A stretch of DNA of 64,000 bases, from positions 2,526,001 through 2,590,000 of the forward strand of contig NZ_AP022870.1 of the NCBI RefSeq assembly GCF_011764545.1, read 5' to 3'. Under the pieces are notes generated by a model, which saw nothing but the letters and a program-made list of their open reading frames with translations, did not search any database and was not told where the DNA came from. The first letter of the stretch is position 1. Each line of letters opens with the position of its first letter. This document shows positions 41,036-45,611 of this stretch, piece by piece. The stretch comes from Phytohabitans flavus. GTDB lineage: Bacteria > Actinomycetota > Actinomycetes > Mycobacteriales > Micromonosporaceae. Position numbers and translations under genes: made by a program.

Positions 41036-41062
41036 TGTCGATTCCGGCCGACCCCGTCCGTC
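41036..41062 (+). promoter_or_regulatory. candidate ECF42 promoter before the first DGPF gene
   Basis: TGTCGA (41036-41041), 17-bp spacer, CGTC (41059-41062), about 45 bp before the ATG at 41107. It has the same spacing as the element at 42320 and agrees with the motif I recall for ECF42 sigma factors (TGTCGA, CGA/TC). Confidence 0.6.
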
Positions 41063-41106
41063 GGCGAGACGTAGGAACACAAAGAACGAGAAACCAGGAG
41101 CAGACG

Positions 41107-41448
41107 ATGCCGCAGTACGCCATCCTCATCCACTCGCCCGCGCCGGCCGACCCGATGACCATCACGCCGGAGTACCTTGAGCAGCTCGATCGCTACCCGG
41201 CCCAGGTCACCGAGCTGGGCGGCAATATCGTGACCGGCTTCGCGCTGGAGCCGAGCACCAGGGCCACCTCGATCCGGGGTGACGTGGTCACCGACGGGCC
41301 GTTCATCGAGGCCAAGGAGGTCGTGGCCGGGTTCTTCATCCTGGAGGCGCCCGACTACGACACCGCGGTGGCGATCGCCAAGCTCAACCCGGCCACGATC
41401 GACGGCGGCGTGGAGGTGCGGCCGCTGTTCTTCCCGCCGGCGGAGTAG
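41107..41448 (+). CDS. DGPF/YCII-related protein
   Basis: 113 residues, ATG at 41107 with AGGAG upstream. Single YCII/DGPF domain: MPQYAILIHSP, LEPSTRATSIRG, the namesake TDGPFIEAKEVVAGFFIL and a closing VEVRPLFFP. Such proteins are soluble dimers of unknown function and are the standard genomic partners of ECF42 sigma factors. One such sigma factor lies 1.6 kb downstream, and this gene carries an ECF42-like promoter. Confidence 0.85.
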   Translation: MPQYAILIHSPAPADPMTITPEYLEQLDRYPAQVTELGGNIVTGFALEPSTRATSIRGDVVTDGPFIEAKEVVAGFFILEAPDYDTAVAIAKLNPATIDGGVEVRPLFFPPAE

Positions 41449-41513
41449 CACCGCGGTGCTACCGCCAGACGAGTAGCGTGCGCTCGCTGTACGGCTGGCC
41501 GACAATTGCGGCC

Positions 41514-42293
41514 ATGCGGGTTGCCAGCACCCTGTCGTACGACGTCGCCGGGCCGGCGGAGGTCGCCTTCCAGGTGGCCGTCGCCGGCCCCGTCACGTCC
41601 GAGGTCCTGACCGTCACGCTCGACGGCGCCGCCGTGCCGGTGACCGCGGTCGACCGTACCCACCTGGTGCGCGTCGGGGCGACGGGGCGGCTTGTCGCCG
41701 CCTACGCGGCGGAGCTGCCCGACCGCCGGGAAGGACCCCCGCCGCCCTCCGACCGTGACCGGCTCGTCGCGCTGCGGCCGAGCCGCTACTGCCCGTCCGA
41801 CCGGCTCGCCGGGTACGCCACAAGTCGCTTCGGCACGCTCTCCGGCGCGGATGCGGTACGAGCCATCGTGGATCACGTGCACCGGCACCTGGTGTACACC
41901 CTGGGAGCGAGCGGGCCCACGACGGACGCCGCGGACACGCTGCTGGCCGGCCAGGGGGTGTGCCGCGACTACGCCCACCTGGTCGCCACCCTGTGCCGGG
42001 CGGTCGACGTGCCGGCCCGGGTCGCCGCCGTGTACGCGCCCGGCCTCGACCCCATGGACTTCCACCTCGTCGCCGAGACCGCGCTCGACGGCGGCTGGTG
42101 GGTGTGGGACGCGACCCGGCTGGCGCCGCGCCCGGCGCTCGCGCGGATCGCGACGGGGCGGGACGCGGCGGACGTCGCGTTCGCCACGATGCTCACCGGC
42201 ACGCTCAACCCGATCGGCCAGGAGATCGTCGCGACGACCGCCGCCGACCTGCCCGAAGACGACCACACGTCGCTGGTCGCGCTGCCCGGCTGA
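41514..42293 (+). CDS. transglutaminase-like cysteine-protease-fold protein
   Basis: 259 residues from the ATG at 41514. Transglutaminase core: Cys in LLAGQGVCRDYAHLVATLCR, His in PGLDPMDFHLVAETALDGGW, Asp in WWVWDATRLAPRPALARIA, a complete triad. The N-terminal ~95 residues are a beta-rich domain (LSYDVAGPAEVAFQVAVAGP; RYCPSDRLAGYA). No signal peptide. These actinobacterial proteins probably act as peptidases or amidases rather than cross-linkers. It lies between two DGPF genes, but no ECF42-type element is visible directly upstream. Confidence 0.85.
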   Translation: MRVASTLSYDVAGPAEVAFQVAVAGPVTSEVLTVTLDGAAVPVTAVDRTHLVRVGATGRLVAAYAAELPDRREGPPPPSDRDRLVALRPSRYCPSDRLAGYATSRFGTLSGADAVRAIVDHVHRHLVYTLGASGPTTDAADTLLAGQGVCRDYAHLVATLCRAVDVPARVAAVYAPGLDPMDFHLVAETALDGGWWVWDATRLAPRPALARIATGRDAADVAFATMLTGTLNPIGQEIVATTAADLPEDDHTSLVALPG

Positions 42294-42319
42294 AATTTTC
42301 GACGTTTCCGGGTGCCGGC

Positions 42320-42346
42320 TGTCCGGATTCGCGCGGACCGTTCGTC
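42320..42346 (+). promoter_or_regulatory. candidate ECF42 promoter before the second DGPF gene
   Basis: TGTCCG (42320-42325), 17-bp spacer, CGTC (42343-42346). Same layout as the element at 41036-41062 with two changes in the -35-like half. Confidence 0.55.
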
Positions 42347-42352
42347 AGGGTG

Positions 42353-42382
42353 GTGAGATCCAGACGAGTGAGATCCAGACGA
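42353..42382 (+). repeat. 15-bp perfect tandem duplication in a 5' UTR
   Basis: GTGAGATCCAGACGA occurs twice in immediate succession, between the ECF42-like promoter and the GAGGAGGAG ribosome-binding site of the second DGPF gene. Confidence 0.8.
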
Positions 42383-42396
42383 GGAGGAGAGCTGAG

Positions 42397-42729
42397 ATGA
42401 AGTACATGATGTTTGTCTGCACCGACACCGAGCCGGACACCGACAAGAGCGCCGAGCCGGACATCGAGGTATGGGTGGCGGAAAACGACGCGAGCGGCCG
42501 CCGCCTCGACGGGTACCAGCTCGCGTCGGTCAACGCCGCGACGACGGTGCGGGTGCGCAACGGCGAGCTGCTGGTGTCGGACGGGCCGTTCGCCGAGACC
42601 AAGGAGGTGATCGTGGGCTACGACCTGCTGGAGTGTGCCGACCTGGACGAGGCGATCGAGATCGCCCGGGCCCACCCGATGGCGCGGGCCGGGCGGATCG
42701 AGCTGCGCCCGTTCGCCGACCTTGGCTGA
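42397..42729 (+). CDS. DGPF/YCII-related protein, ECF42 partner
   Basis: 110 residues from the ATG at 42397, with a strong SD (GAGGAGGAG at 42381-42389). MKYMMFVCTDTEPDTD, then VRNGELLVSDGPFAETKEV (DGPF motif), GYDLLECADLDEAIEIARAH and RIELRPFADLG. Paralogue of the protein at 41107, about one third identical by eye. Its 3' end overlaps the TTG start of the sigma factor gene by 8 bp, so the two are translationally coupled, as in ECF42 loci generally. Confidence 0.88.
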   Translation: MKYMMFVCTDTEPDTDKSAEPDIEVWVAENDASGRRLDGYQLASVNAATTVRVRNGELLVSDGPFAETKEVIVGYDLLECADLDEAIEIARAHPMARAGRIELRPFADLG

Positions 42730-43966
42730 CGGCGGCGCCGTCCGGGCCGCGCCCGCGGTAGCGGCGGAGGCCGCCGCGCACGCGGCGCGGGACTCGCATG
42801 CCCAGATCGTCGCGACGCTCATCCGCGTGACCGGCGACTGGACGCTCGCGGAGGACTGCGCCCAGGAGGCCCTCGTGCAGGCCCTCCAGCGCTGGCCGGC
42901 TGCCGGCGTCCCCGCCAACCCGGCGGCCTGGCTCATGACCGTGGCCCGCAACCGGGCGACCGACGTCCTGCGCCGCGCCACCGTGGAACGCCGGAAGCTA
43001 CAAGAGCTCGCCACCCTCGCGCCCACCGACGCGGAATCGCCGGCGGCGGGAGAGGAGGAGGTCGTGGACGACCGGCTGCGGCTCATCTTCACCTGCTGCC
43101 ACCCCGCGCTCGCCCTCGACGCCCGGGTGGCGCTCACGCTCCGGACGATCTGCGGGATCCCGACCACCGACATCGCGCGCGCGTTGCTGGTCACGGAGTC
43201 GACCATGACCCGCCGCCTCACGCGAGCCAAGACGAAGATCGCGGACGCCCGTATCCCGTACCGCGTGCCGTCCGGCCCGGCCCTCGCCGAGCGGCTGCCC
43301 GGCGTGCTGGCCGTGCTGTACCTGCTCTTCACCCGTGGGTACAACGCGGACGGTGAGCCGGCGTTCGCGGACGAGGCGATCAGGCTGGTCCGGCTGCTGG
43401 ACGACCTGATGCCCGGACAGCCCGAGATCTCGGCGCTGCTCGCCCTCTTCCTCTTCCAGCACTCCCGCCGCGATGCCCGCCGCGACGGCGACGGCAACCT
43501 GGTGCCCCTCGACCGGCAGGACCGCGACCGCTGGGACCACGCCGCGATCGCGGAAGGGCTGGCCGTGCTGGGCCGGGTGCGGGAGGACGGCCCGTACGCG
43601 CTCCAGTCCCGCATCGCCGCCTGCCACGCGACCGCCACCTCGTTCGACGCCACCGACTGGCCGGCGATCGCCGCTTGGTACGACGCACTGGCCGCCCGCT
43701 CGGCGTCGCCGGTGGTGGCACTCAACCGTGCGGTCGCGCACGGCTACGCGTACGGGCCGGCGGCTGGGCTGGCGTTGCTCGCCGAGGCGCGGGCGGGTGG
43801 GGCGCTGGACGGGTACCCGCTCGCGGTGGCCGCCGAGGCCGACCTCACCGCCCGCCAAGGCGACCGGGAGCGGGCGGCGGCGCTCTTCCGGGAGGCCGCC
43901 GCGCGGACCCACGCCGAGCCCGAACGCCGCGCACTCCTCGACCGCGCCGCCGACCTTTCTCAGTAG
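42722..43966 (+). CDS. ECF42-type RNA polymerase sigma factor
   Basis: 414 residues. No ATG or GTG precedes the sigma2 domain, so the TTG at 42722, inside the end of the DGPF gene, is taken as start. Sigma2: IVATLIRVTGDWTLAEDCAQ and ANPAAWLMTVARNRATDVLR. Sigma4: ALTLRTICGIPTTDIARALL and VTESTMTRRLTRAKTKI. After about residue 190 comes a ~220-residue helical, TPR-like extension (VLAVLYLLFTRGYNADGEPA; SPVVALNRAVAHGYAYGPAA; ARQGDRERAAALFREAAART), which is diagnostic for ECF42 and probably replaces an anti-sigma factor in control. It likely drives its own locus through the two elements at 41036 and 42320. Confidence 0.88.
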   Translation: MADGGAVRAAPAVAAEAAAHAARDSHAQIVATLIRVTGDWTLAEDCAQEALVQALQRWPAAGVPANPAAWLMTVARNRATDVLRRATVERRKLQELATLAPTDAESPAAGEEEVVDDRLRLIFTCCHPALALDARVALTLRTICGIPTTDIARALLVTESTMTRRLTRAKTKIADARIPYRVPSGPALAERLPGVLAVLYLLFTRGYNADGEPAFADEAIRLVRLLDDLMPGQPEISALLALFLFQHSRRDARRDGDGNLVPLDRQDRDRWDHAAIAEGLAVLGRVREDGPYALQSRIAACHATATSFDATDWPAIAAWYDALAARSASPVVALNRAVAHGYAYGPAAGLALLAEARAGGALDGYPLAVAAEADLTARQGDRERAAALFREAAARTHAEPERRALLDRAADLSQ

Positions 43967-44135: not shown

Positions 44136-45611
44136 ATGGTCAAGCTTAGACAGTTCGCGTTGGTCGTGGGGGTCGCCGCGGTGCTGGGCGTCGCGGCATG
44201 CGGGGGAGGCGGGCGCAGCGACAGCCTCGTCGCACCGGAGCCGTTGCCGGACCGGCACGGCCCGGCCACCCCGCGCACGGACCGGGACGGCGAGACGAGC
44301 GTCACGGACGATCCACAGTCGACATTCGCGATCGACGTGGACACCGCGTCGTACGGCTACGCCCGCCGGCTCATCACCGAGGGCCGCAAGCCGGATGCCA
44401 GCCAGGTACGGCCGGAGGAGTTCGTCAACTCGTTCGAACAGGACTACCCCGAGCCGAGCGGTGACGGCTTCGCGGTGCACCTCGACGGCGCGCGGTTCCC
44501 GGAGTTCCACGAGGCCGGCACCGATACCCGGCTGATGCGGGTGGGCCTGCGCACGCGCGGCGAGGACCCCACGACGCGGGAGGACGCCGCGCTGACGTTC
44601 GTGGTCGACGTCTCCGGCTCGATGGCCGAGCCCGGCCGGCTCGACCTGGTACAGGACTCCCTGCACACGCTCATCGACGAGCTGCGCCCGACCGATTCGG
44701 TGGCGATCGTGGCGTTCAGCGGCGAGGCGGAAGTGGTCACCGAGATGACCCCCGTCTCGGACGCGCGTGCCCTCCACGAAGCGGTCGACGCGCTGCGCAC
44801 GCGGAGTAGCACCAACCTCGAAGCCGGGCTTGTACTCGGGTACCAGGTGGCGCGCGAGGGCTTCCGGCCCGGCCGTACCAACCGGGTGATCGTGCTCTCC
44901 GACGGGCTGGCGAACACCGGCGACACCGACGCCGACGCGATCCTGCGGCGCGTGAGCGAGGAGGCCGGCAAGCAGATCGCGCTGCTCGGCGTCGGCGTGG
45001 GCAGCGAGTACGGCGACGCGCTCATGGAGCGGCTCGCCGACCGCGGCGACGGCTTCGTCGTGTACGTCAGCGAACGCGAGCAGGCCCGCGGGGTCTTCGT
45101 CCGCGAGCTTCCGGCCACGCTCGCGGTACGGGCACTGGACGCTAAGGTCCAGGTTACCTTCGACCCGGCAGCCGTTCGTTCGTACCGCCTGATCGGCTAC
45201 GAGAACCGCGCGATCGCCGACGAGGACTTCCGCGACGACCGGGTCGACGGCGGCGAGGTGGGCCCGGGCCACAGCGTGACCGCGCTGTACGCGGTGCGGC
45301 TCACCGCCGAGGCGGCCGGAAACGCGCGGGTGGCCCAGGTGCGGGCGCGCTGGCTGGATCCGGGCTCGCGGGACGCGGCCGAGGTGTACGAGTCCCTCAC
45401 CGTCGCCGACCTGGGCGCCCGGTTCGACGCCGCCGGGCCACGGCTGCGGATGTCTTACGCCGCCGGCTATTTCGCCGAGGCGCTGCGCGGAAGCGGTGTG
45501 GTGTCACTCGGATCGCTCGCTCCCGTGGCCCGCCGGGCCGGCGACGACACCCGCGACCCCGCAGTGGACGACCTCGCCTCGCTCATCGGTCGCGCCGCCG
45601 AGCTGGACTGA
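44136..45611 (+). CDS. vWA-domain lipoprotein (YfbK-like)
   Basis: 491 residues from the ATG at 44136 with GGGAGGGAAGGA upstream. Lipoprotein signal MVKLRQFALVVGVAAVLGVA with lipobox VAAC. An N-terminal von Willebrand domain-associated region (FAIDVDTASYGYARRLITEG; VNSFEQDYPEPSGDGF) precedes a vWA domain with an intact MIDAS (FVVDVSGSMAEPGRLDL; later TNLEAGLVLGYQVAR and VIVLSDGLANTGDTDAD). The C-terminal ~120 residues are another beta domain (GPGHSVTALYAVRLTAEAAG). It is surface-exposed and probably binds a partner through Mg2+. It follows the sigma factor by 169 bp and may or may not belong to its regulon. Confidence 0.88.
   Translation: MVKLRQFALVVGVAAVLGVAACGGGGRSDSLVAPEPLPDRHGPATPRTDRDGETSVTDDPQSTFAIDVDTASYGYARRLITEGRKPDASQVRPEEFVNSFEQDYPEPSGDGFAVHLDGARFPEFHEAGTDTRLMRVGLRTRGEDPTTREDAALTFVVDVSGSMAEPGRLDLVQDSLHTLIDELRPTDSVAIVAFSGEAEVVTEMTPVSDARALHEAVDALRTRSSTNLEAGLVLGYQVAREGFRPGRTNRVIVLSDGLANTGDTDADAILRRVSEEAGKQIALLGVGVGSEYGDALMERLADRGDGFVVYVSEREQARGVFVRELPATLAVRALDAKVQVTFDPAAVRSYRLIGYENRAIADEDFRDDRVDGGEVGPGHSVTALYAVRLTAEAAGNARVAQVRARWLDPGSRDAAEVYESLTVADLGARFDAAGPRLRMSYAAGYFAEALRGSGVVSLGSLAPVARRAGDDTRDPAVDDLASLIGRAAELD

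Follow-up and report, generated by a model that had tools for sequence, protein, structure and literature searches.

A DGPF-2/ECF42 cassette of Phytohabitans flavus and a neighbouring, putatively orphan DGPF gene with a promoter of another ECF42 branch

We analysed a window of 64,000 nucleotides (nt) from Phytohabitans flavus (contig NZ_AP022870.1, positions 2,526,001 to 2,590,000), whose genome of 9,607,004 bases forms one contig. From left to right, the locus under study consisted of a promoter at 41036, the gene DGPF-1, a transglutaminase-like gene, a promoter at 42320, the gene DGPF-2 and an ECF42 sigma factor gene (Table 1). An earlier note on this DNA had described it as a self-contained ECF42 regulon with two matching promoters. 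Our results suggested instead that the window probably holds an autoregulated DGPF-2/ECF42 cassette together with DGPF-1, an orphan that would be of other origin and addressed to another ECF42 branch. The local observations of the note were confirmed. TGTC-type sites followed by CGTC were present before both DGPF genes, starting 71 bp 5' of the DGPF-1 ATG (41107) and, as TGTCCG-N17-CGTC at 42320-42346, 77 bp 5' of the DGPF-2 ATG (42397), with spacers of exactly 17 bp. The sigma gene was coupled to DGPF-2 by overlapping reading frames (TTG at 42722; DGPF-2 stop TGA at 42727-42729), and no anti-sigma gene was recognisable adjoining the cassette, where Pfam identified an AI-2E transporter, the transglutaminase-like protein and a VWA/YfbK protein. 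The word "self-contained" was already weakened by the presence of 13 DUF6596 (ECF42-type) genes in the genome, 12 of them beyond the window; only the DGPF-2/ECF42 half of that claim stood, being conserved and having a promoter unique to it, whereas the DGPF-1 half had a promoter of another class and was not conserved.

To describe the conserved half, we compared 80 orthologous loci from named actinobacterial genomes, in which the nearest relatives of the sigma gene were those of Phytohabitans suffuscus and P. maris. Of the 80 loci, 79 had DGPF-2 5' of the sigma gene. The promoter at 42320 was conserved with it: 68 of the 79 loci carried TGTCCG, 10 carried (G/C)GTCCG and one carried TGTCCT, with CGTC 16-18 bp further on in each, and NGTCCG...CGTC was kept in 78 of them, 50-85 bp before the gene. 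A looser form of the strict pattern was found in 73 of 82 upstream regions; the reverse complement gave 6, and ten shuffles gave 0-8. The logo of this promoter class (class A) was TGTCCGGA ... CCGTTCGTCA, followed downstream by a conserved TGGTGA. When the full class A motif was run against the 9.6-Mb genome, the only perfect match was the site at 42320. Allowing one or two mismatches added no site, and three mismatches added 17 (7 for the reversed control). The cassette is therefore predicted to have few targets beyond itself, the DGPF-2/ECF42 operon being the only strongly predicted target of its sigma factor. The shorter TGTCGA-N16-18-CGTC, close to the pattern that the earlier note had recommended for a genome scan, gave 256 matches (66 for the reversed pattern); it proved unspecific on its own and was dropped as a genome-wide predictor of targets. 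The -35 consensus of the ECF42 group is TGTCGA, whereas that of the window cassette is TGTCCG.

Autoregulation of the cassette is likely. DGPF-2 and the sigma factor would form one operon expressed from the 42320 promoter with positive feedback, the sigma factor reading TGTCCG through T163-R164 of its sigma4 recognition helix and CGTC through its sigma2 domain. It seems to fire only its own operon because these two recognition-helix residues match two promoter letters. Conservation, co-variation and promoter scores were read directly from the sequence, whereas binding, transcription, the identity of a second reader and the signal are matters of inference.

The second half of the locus behaved differently. 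DGPF-1 adjoined the cassette in one of the 80 ortholog loci, that of P. suffuscus (L086; L numbers denote individual loci), and the transglutaminase-like gene, an insert between both DGPF genes, was likewise found elsewhere by this cassette only there. We examined 30 DGPF-1-like loci, counting those of the window and P. suffuscus. An ECF42 gene, 44-52% identical to that of the window, lay directly 3' in 26 of them, and TGTCGA with a strict -10 element was present in 17 of these 26 loci. The closest relative of DGPF-1 that we found (L167, 81%) adjoined a sigma factor 47-49% identical to the window's, and its promoter, TGTCGAATCCGGCCGGACCCGTTCGTCGG, was close to the DGPF-1 promoter, TGTCGATTCCGGCCGACCCCGTCCGTCGG. 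We then scored both window promoters on class matrices trained without the window, on which members ranged from 20.8 to 40.4 for class A and from 12.3 to 30.9 for class B, the other branch. On class A, the DGPF-2 promoter scored 33.1 and the DGPF-1 promoter -1.7; on class B, they scored 6.6 and 31.2, respectively. Only the DGPF-2 promoter thus fitted the class of the adjacent sigma factor. An all-spacer version of the matrices gave the same picture. These results suggested that DGPF-1 is an orphan under a TGTCGA promoter of another ECF42 branch, and the transglutaminase-like gene that follows probably belongs with it. The predicted reader of this promoter, if it is read at all, would be a resident A163-A164 sigma factor, such as that at 4,217,728 (L050) or 8,514,053 (L048).

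The two promoters could nevertheless be read by one sigma factor that tolerates the -35 difference, which would make both DGPF genes its regulon. They lie about 1.3 kb apart and share the TGTC core, the spacer and CGTC, and ECF42 promoters are otherwise alike. Against this stand the class A score of the DGPF-1 promoter and the lack of conservation of DGPF-1 beside the cassette; in addition, GA at positions 5-6 was found with none of the 83 T163-R164 sigma factors that had a scored promoter. We therefore consider a common regulon unlikely. The claim that the promoters match was not supported: positions 5-6 of the -35 element differ (GA versus CG), and over 244 promoters the bases found there change together with the sigma4 recognition helix.

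To examine this link, we assembled 210 distinct ECF42 proteins after excluding 6 short proteins and 11 duplicates; 198 had a DGPF gene upstream and 12 did not. Further loci were sampled from the matches listed: 80 (mostly in the order given) and 58. The score used to choose promoters took no account of -35 positions 5-6. At a threshold of 13, 167 of the 198 upstream regions yielded a promoter, compared with 13-30 of 198 in reverse-complement and shuffled controls; a threshold of 11.5 was abandoned, as the null then yielded 107-127 of 198. The bases at positions 5-6 followed the sigma factor tree and residues 163 and 164. Overall, residue 164 and position 5 agreed in 237 of 244 promoters: a basic residue went with C in 101 of 102 cases, and other residues went with G in 136 of 142. 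At scores of 14 or more, the counts were 90 of 91 and 102 of 102. When 351 columns were scanned with relatives down-weighted, column 164 ranked first for position 5 (0.65; next 0.35), and it also ranked first among 1836 residue partitions. For the -10 difference, the same scan pointed to no clear residue in sigma2; its top columns (188, 37 and 299) are implausible contacts.

The association might instead reflect shared descent of cassettes, with no part played by recognition, since cassettes are inherited whole and one large class (83 T163-R164 promoters) dominates the data. On a tree built without the helix, however, there were 14 residue switches and 15 base switches, of which 10 fell on the same branch; random branch placement gave a mean of 0.92 shared switches and a maximum of 6 in 20,000 draws. 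T163-R164 was also combined with CG apart from class A, in the same genome (L039) and in two held-out loci (L308 and L325), and S163-K164 was combined with CG in a Paraburkholderia plasmid. Such repeated switching makes descent alone a very improbable explanation.

We further evaluated the link on held-out promoters, with the prediction recorded beforehand. The set comprised 62 promoters from across the phylum and 15 from plasmids, proteobacterial ones included. The 62 came from 78 actinobacterial upstream regions at the threshold of 13 (null 4-25 of 78), 4 short proteins having been excluded and 6 of 84 having no DGPF neighbour. The plasmid set was made up of 22 loci taken for diversity among the 60 matches listed (138 records matched); 3 of the 22, all cyanobacterial, lacked a same-strand DGPF gene. 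At position 5, 75 of 77 promoters agreed with the forecast (basic with C in 4 of 5, one of these four, L384, being another class A member; other with G in 71 of 72). The finer forecasts came true in 3 of 3 cases for TR with CG and in 49 of 53 for AQ or AA with GA. These results indicated that the helix residues forecast the -35 base in unseen cases at position 5. Among the plasmid loci, one from Roseibium (L374) carried an R163-Q164 sigma factor and three TGTCGC sites with CGTC (1232, 2908 and 3922); no other locus of the set showed this -35 variant as a sigma-associated class. In the three cyanobacterial plasmids (L364, L368 and L369), the YciI gene was divergent from the ECF42 gene and preceded by TGTCGA-N17-CGAC, in two copies in L364 and L368.

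Alternatively, DGPF-1 might be a relic in decay, with a promoter that no ECF42 factor uses any more. In the P. suffuscus copy (L086, 2394-3489), the first 28 codons are missing and no promoter can be recognised, whereas its transglutaminase-like neighbour is intact in the alignment (85%). A search of four other Phytohabitans genomes returned nothing above 54% identity to DGPF-1, and no resident ECF42 factor is clearly its partner by descent; L050, an ECF42 gene lacking a DGPF gene, was considered as its former partner and rejected as unproven. In the window itself, however, the frame is intact over 113 codons and the promoter scores above the highest training member of class B. Decay is accordingly a minor possibility, and we prefer to regard DGPF-1 as an orphan still addressed to another branch.

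The DGPF-2/ECF42 cassette is an ordinary ECF42 member of a kind already known. The 414-residue protein combines sigma2 and sigma4 domains without sigma3, and it bears a C-terminal extension of about 200 residues (residues 185-414; DUF6596 E 1.9e-31); the presence of an extension had been recognised in the earlier note. In the structure model (mean predicted local distance difference test score, pLDDT, 91.9; predicted template modelling score, pTM, 0.74), the extension formed 11 helices, and residues 163-164 lay in the first third of helix 159-176. Structure matches to the extension were mostly TPR proteins (VIA Z up to 13.8, 3.6 Å over 204 residues), although such Z values are indecisive for helical repeats, and Foldseek with the extension gave no match at E 0.001 or below (best 2.1e-3). 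According to the available excerpts of PMC8999054, which cites Liu 2018 and Wu 2019 for Streptomyces venezuelae, the ECF42 factors Sven_0747, Sven_7131 and Sven_4377 have a sigma2-sigma4 core, a TPR-rich extension of about 200 residues, a YCII/DGPF neighbour and no anti-sigma factor. The same excerpts report the extension to be essential for activity in the group and propose control through it, perhaps with the DGPF protein as partner. The activity of the window's sigma factor is probably set in this way too, by its TPR-like extension and perhaps with the DGPF protein as partner. Unlike the S. venezuelae systems, the present genome has thirteen paralogues, and the cassette has beside it another DGPF gene whose address differs.

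RpoE10 of Sinorhizobium meliloti (ECF42) offers a second comparison. In the excerpts of PMC6180224, its mapped promoters are TGTCGG-N17-CGTC and a YCII gene is coupled to the sigma gene, the same layout as in the window cassette; it differs in having further targets downstream and on pSymB. We located the published SMc01151 and SMc01149 promoters in L363, where the sigma factor is E163-Q164, paired with GG. The record of L363 (CP090106.1) is titled S. meliloti pSymB, yet at 3.7 Mb it carries dnaA and the chromosomal rpoE10 locus, and its title looks wrong. For ECF sigma factors in general, a residue-base code that links sigma residues position by position to -35 and -10 bases, derived from autoregulated ECFs, has already been printed (Todor 2020, via excerpts of the review PMC8103513). 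In contrast, the link described here lies inside one ECF group, among co-resident paralogues, and includes an orphan target that contradicts gene adjacency. In the literature collection searched, no paper was found that connects ECF42 with DGPF or TGTC, the one match returned being unrelated.

Several observations weigh against our reading. In the column scan, residue 163 came first for position 6 only barely (0.36; next 0.35 among the 351 columns), and position 6 was forecast less well than position 5, GQ with GG being found in 3 of 7 held-out cases. One held-out A163-R164 sigma factor had a TGTCGA promoter, contrary to the forecast. T163/R164 align with R171/S172 of sigma-E, K170/T171 of sigma-W and M181/S182 of sigma-H, residues that read -35 bases (excerpts of PMC6713349 and PMC6411747). 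In those structures the equivalent of 164 contacts -34 and that of 163 contacts -31, so the co-varying bases do not map one-to-one on the contacts, and 164 could be assigned to position 5 only with another register or reach. The L050 sigma factor is 70% identical to that of L167, which is below the level expected were DGPF-1 (81% to its L167 relative) its own partner. Finally, RpoE10 overexpression left its own DGPF gene unraised (excerpts of PMC6180224), indicating that autoregulation is not universal in the ECF42 group.

The genome-wide set of paralogues was examined for the same code. Besides the 13 DUF6596 genes, 16 YCII matches were found, and three of the 13 ECF42 genes (L041, L044 and L050) had no DGPF gene upstream, as was also true of the P. 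suffuscus counterpart of L050 (L271, 91%). Eight of the 13 genes had a DGPF promoter scoring 13 or more, in eight different combinations of positions 5-6, -10 element and spacer. Co-resident pairs shared positions 5-6 plus the -10 element in 8 of 120 cases against 15.5 expected, with a P of about 0.014 that treats non-independent pairs as independent. Positions 5-6 alone were not depleted within genomes (47 versus 49.3 expected), and with the spacer added under a stricter threshold, 2 of 56 pairs shared an address against 5.4 expected (P 0.068). These counts are only suggestive of insulation between co-resident paralogues by differing addresses. We tentatively put forward, as somewhat short of an even chance, that the 13 paralogues are separated by private addresses (residue 164 for position 5, residue 163 for position 6, the -10 element and the spacer), each acting mainly on the operon it belongs to, and that orphan DGPF and ECF42 genes, DGPF-1 among them, are cross-wired by address instead of adjacency. 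Two YCII genes of this genome with no nearby ECF42 gene (L051 and L053), preceded by TGTCGA-N17-CGAC and TGTCGA-N18-CGAC, are candidate cross-wired targets.

The remaining features are listed in Table 1. The DGPF-2 leader measures 77 bp, compared with 62 and 61 bp in L057 and L060, and the 15-nt duplication fits this 15-bp longer leader. The transglutaminase-like, AI-2E and VWA genes were rejected as conserved members of the cassette, the first two being found only in L086 among the 80 ortholog loci. The VWA/YfbK protein, 3' of the sigma gene at 44136-45611, was found in none of them.

Table 1. Features of the DGPF/ECF42 locus, in window coordinates (E, expect value; aa, amino acids)
Feature	Coordinates	Strand	Details
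DGPF-1 promoter, class B (other ECF42 branch)	41036..41062	+	TGTCGA-N17-CGTC; assigned by class matrix scores; like the promoter before the 81% relative in L167
DGPF-1, YCII family, 113 aa; putative orphan from a different ECF42 cassette	41107..41448	+	Pfam PF03795 E 2.4e-10
Transglutaminase-like protein	41514..42293	+	Pfam PF01841 E 1e-17; GTG start at 41478 also possible
DGPF-2/ECF42 promoter, class A	42320..42347	+	TGTCCGGA-N10-CCGTTCGTCA; sole perfect genome match
15-nt perfect tandem duplication	42353..42382	+	GTGAGATCCAGACGA twice; directly 3' of the DGPF-2 promoter -10 element, in the predicted leader
DGPF-2, YCII family, 110 aa	42397..42729	+	Pfam PF03795 E 1.2e-13; in 79/80 ortholog loci
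ECF42 sigma factor, 414 aa from TTG at 42722	42722..43966	+	Pfam Sigma70_r2, Sigma70_r4_2, DUF6596; model pLDDT 91.9
Codons T163-R164, sigma4 recognition helix	43208..43213	+	Predicted readers of -35 positions 6 and 5
C-terminal extension, residues 185-414, TPR-like	43274..43963	+	11 helices in model

In actinobacteria, near-identical ECF42 factors can number a dozen or more, and at issue is whether these form a single network or separate switches. Relative to the excerpted sources cited here, the present analysis adds a within-group address code across co-resident paralogues and an orphan target for which adjacency would mislead. Adjacency and a matching short motif are thus insufficient to call a regulon. 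If the address code holds, the pairing of promoter and sigma factor would be readable from two residues, and sequence, in place of gene order, could be used to assign targets.

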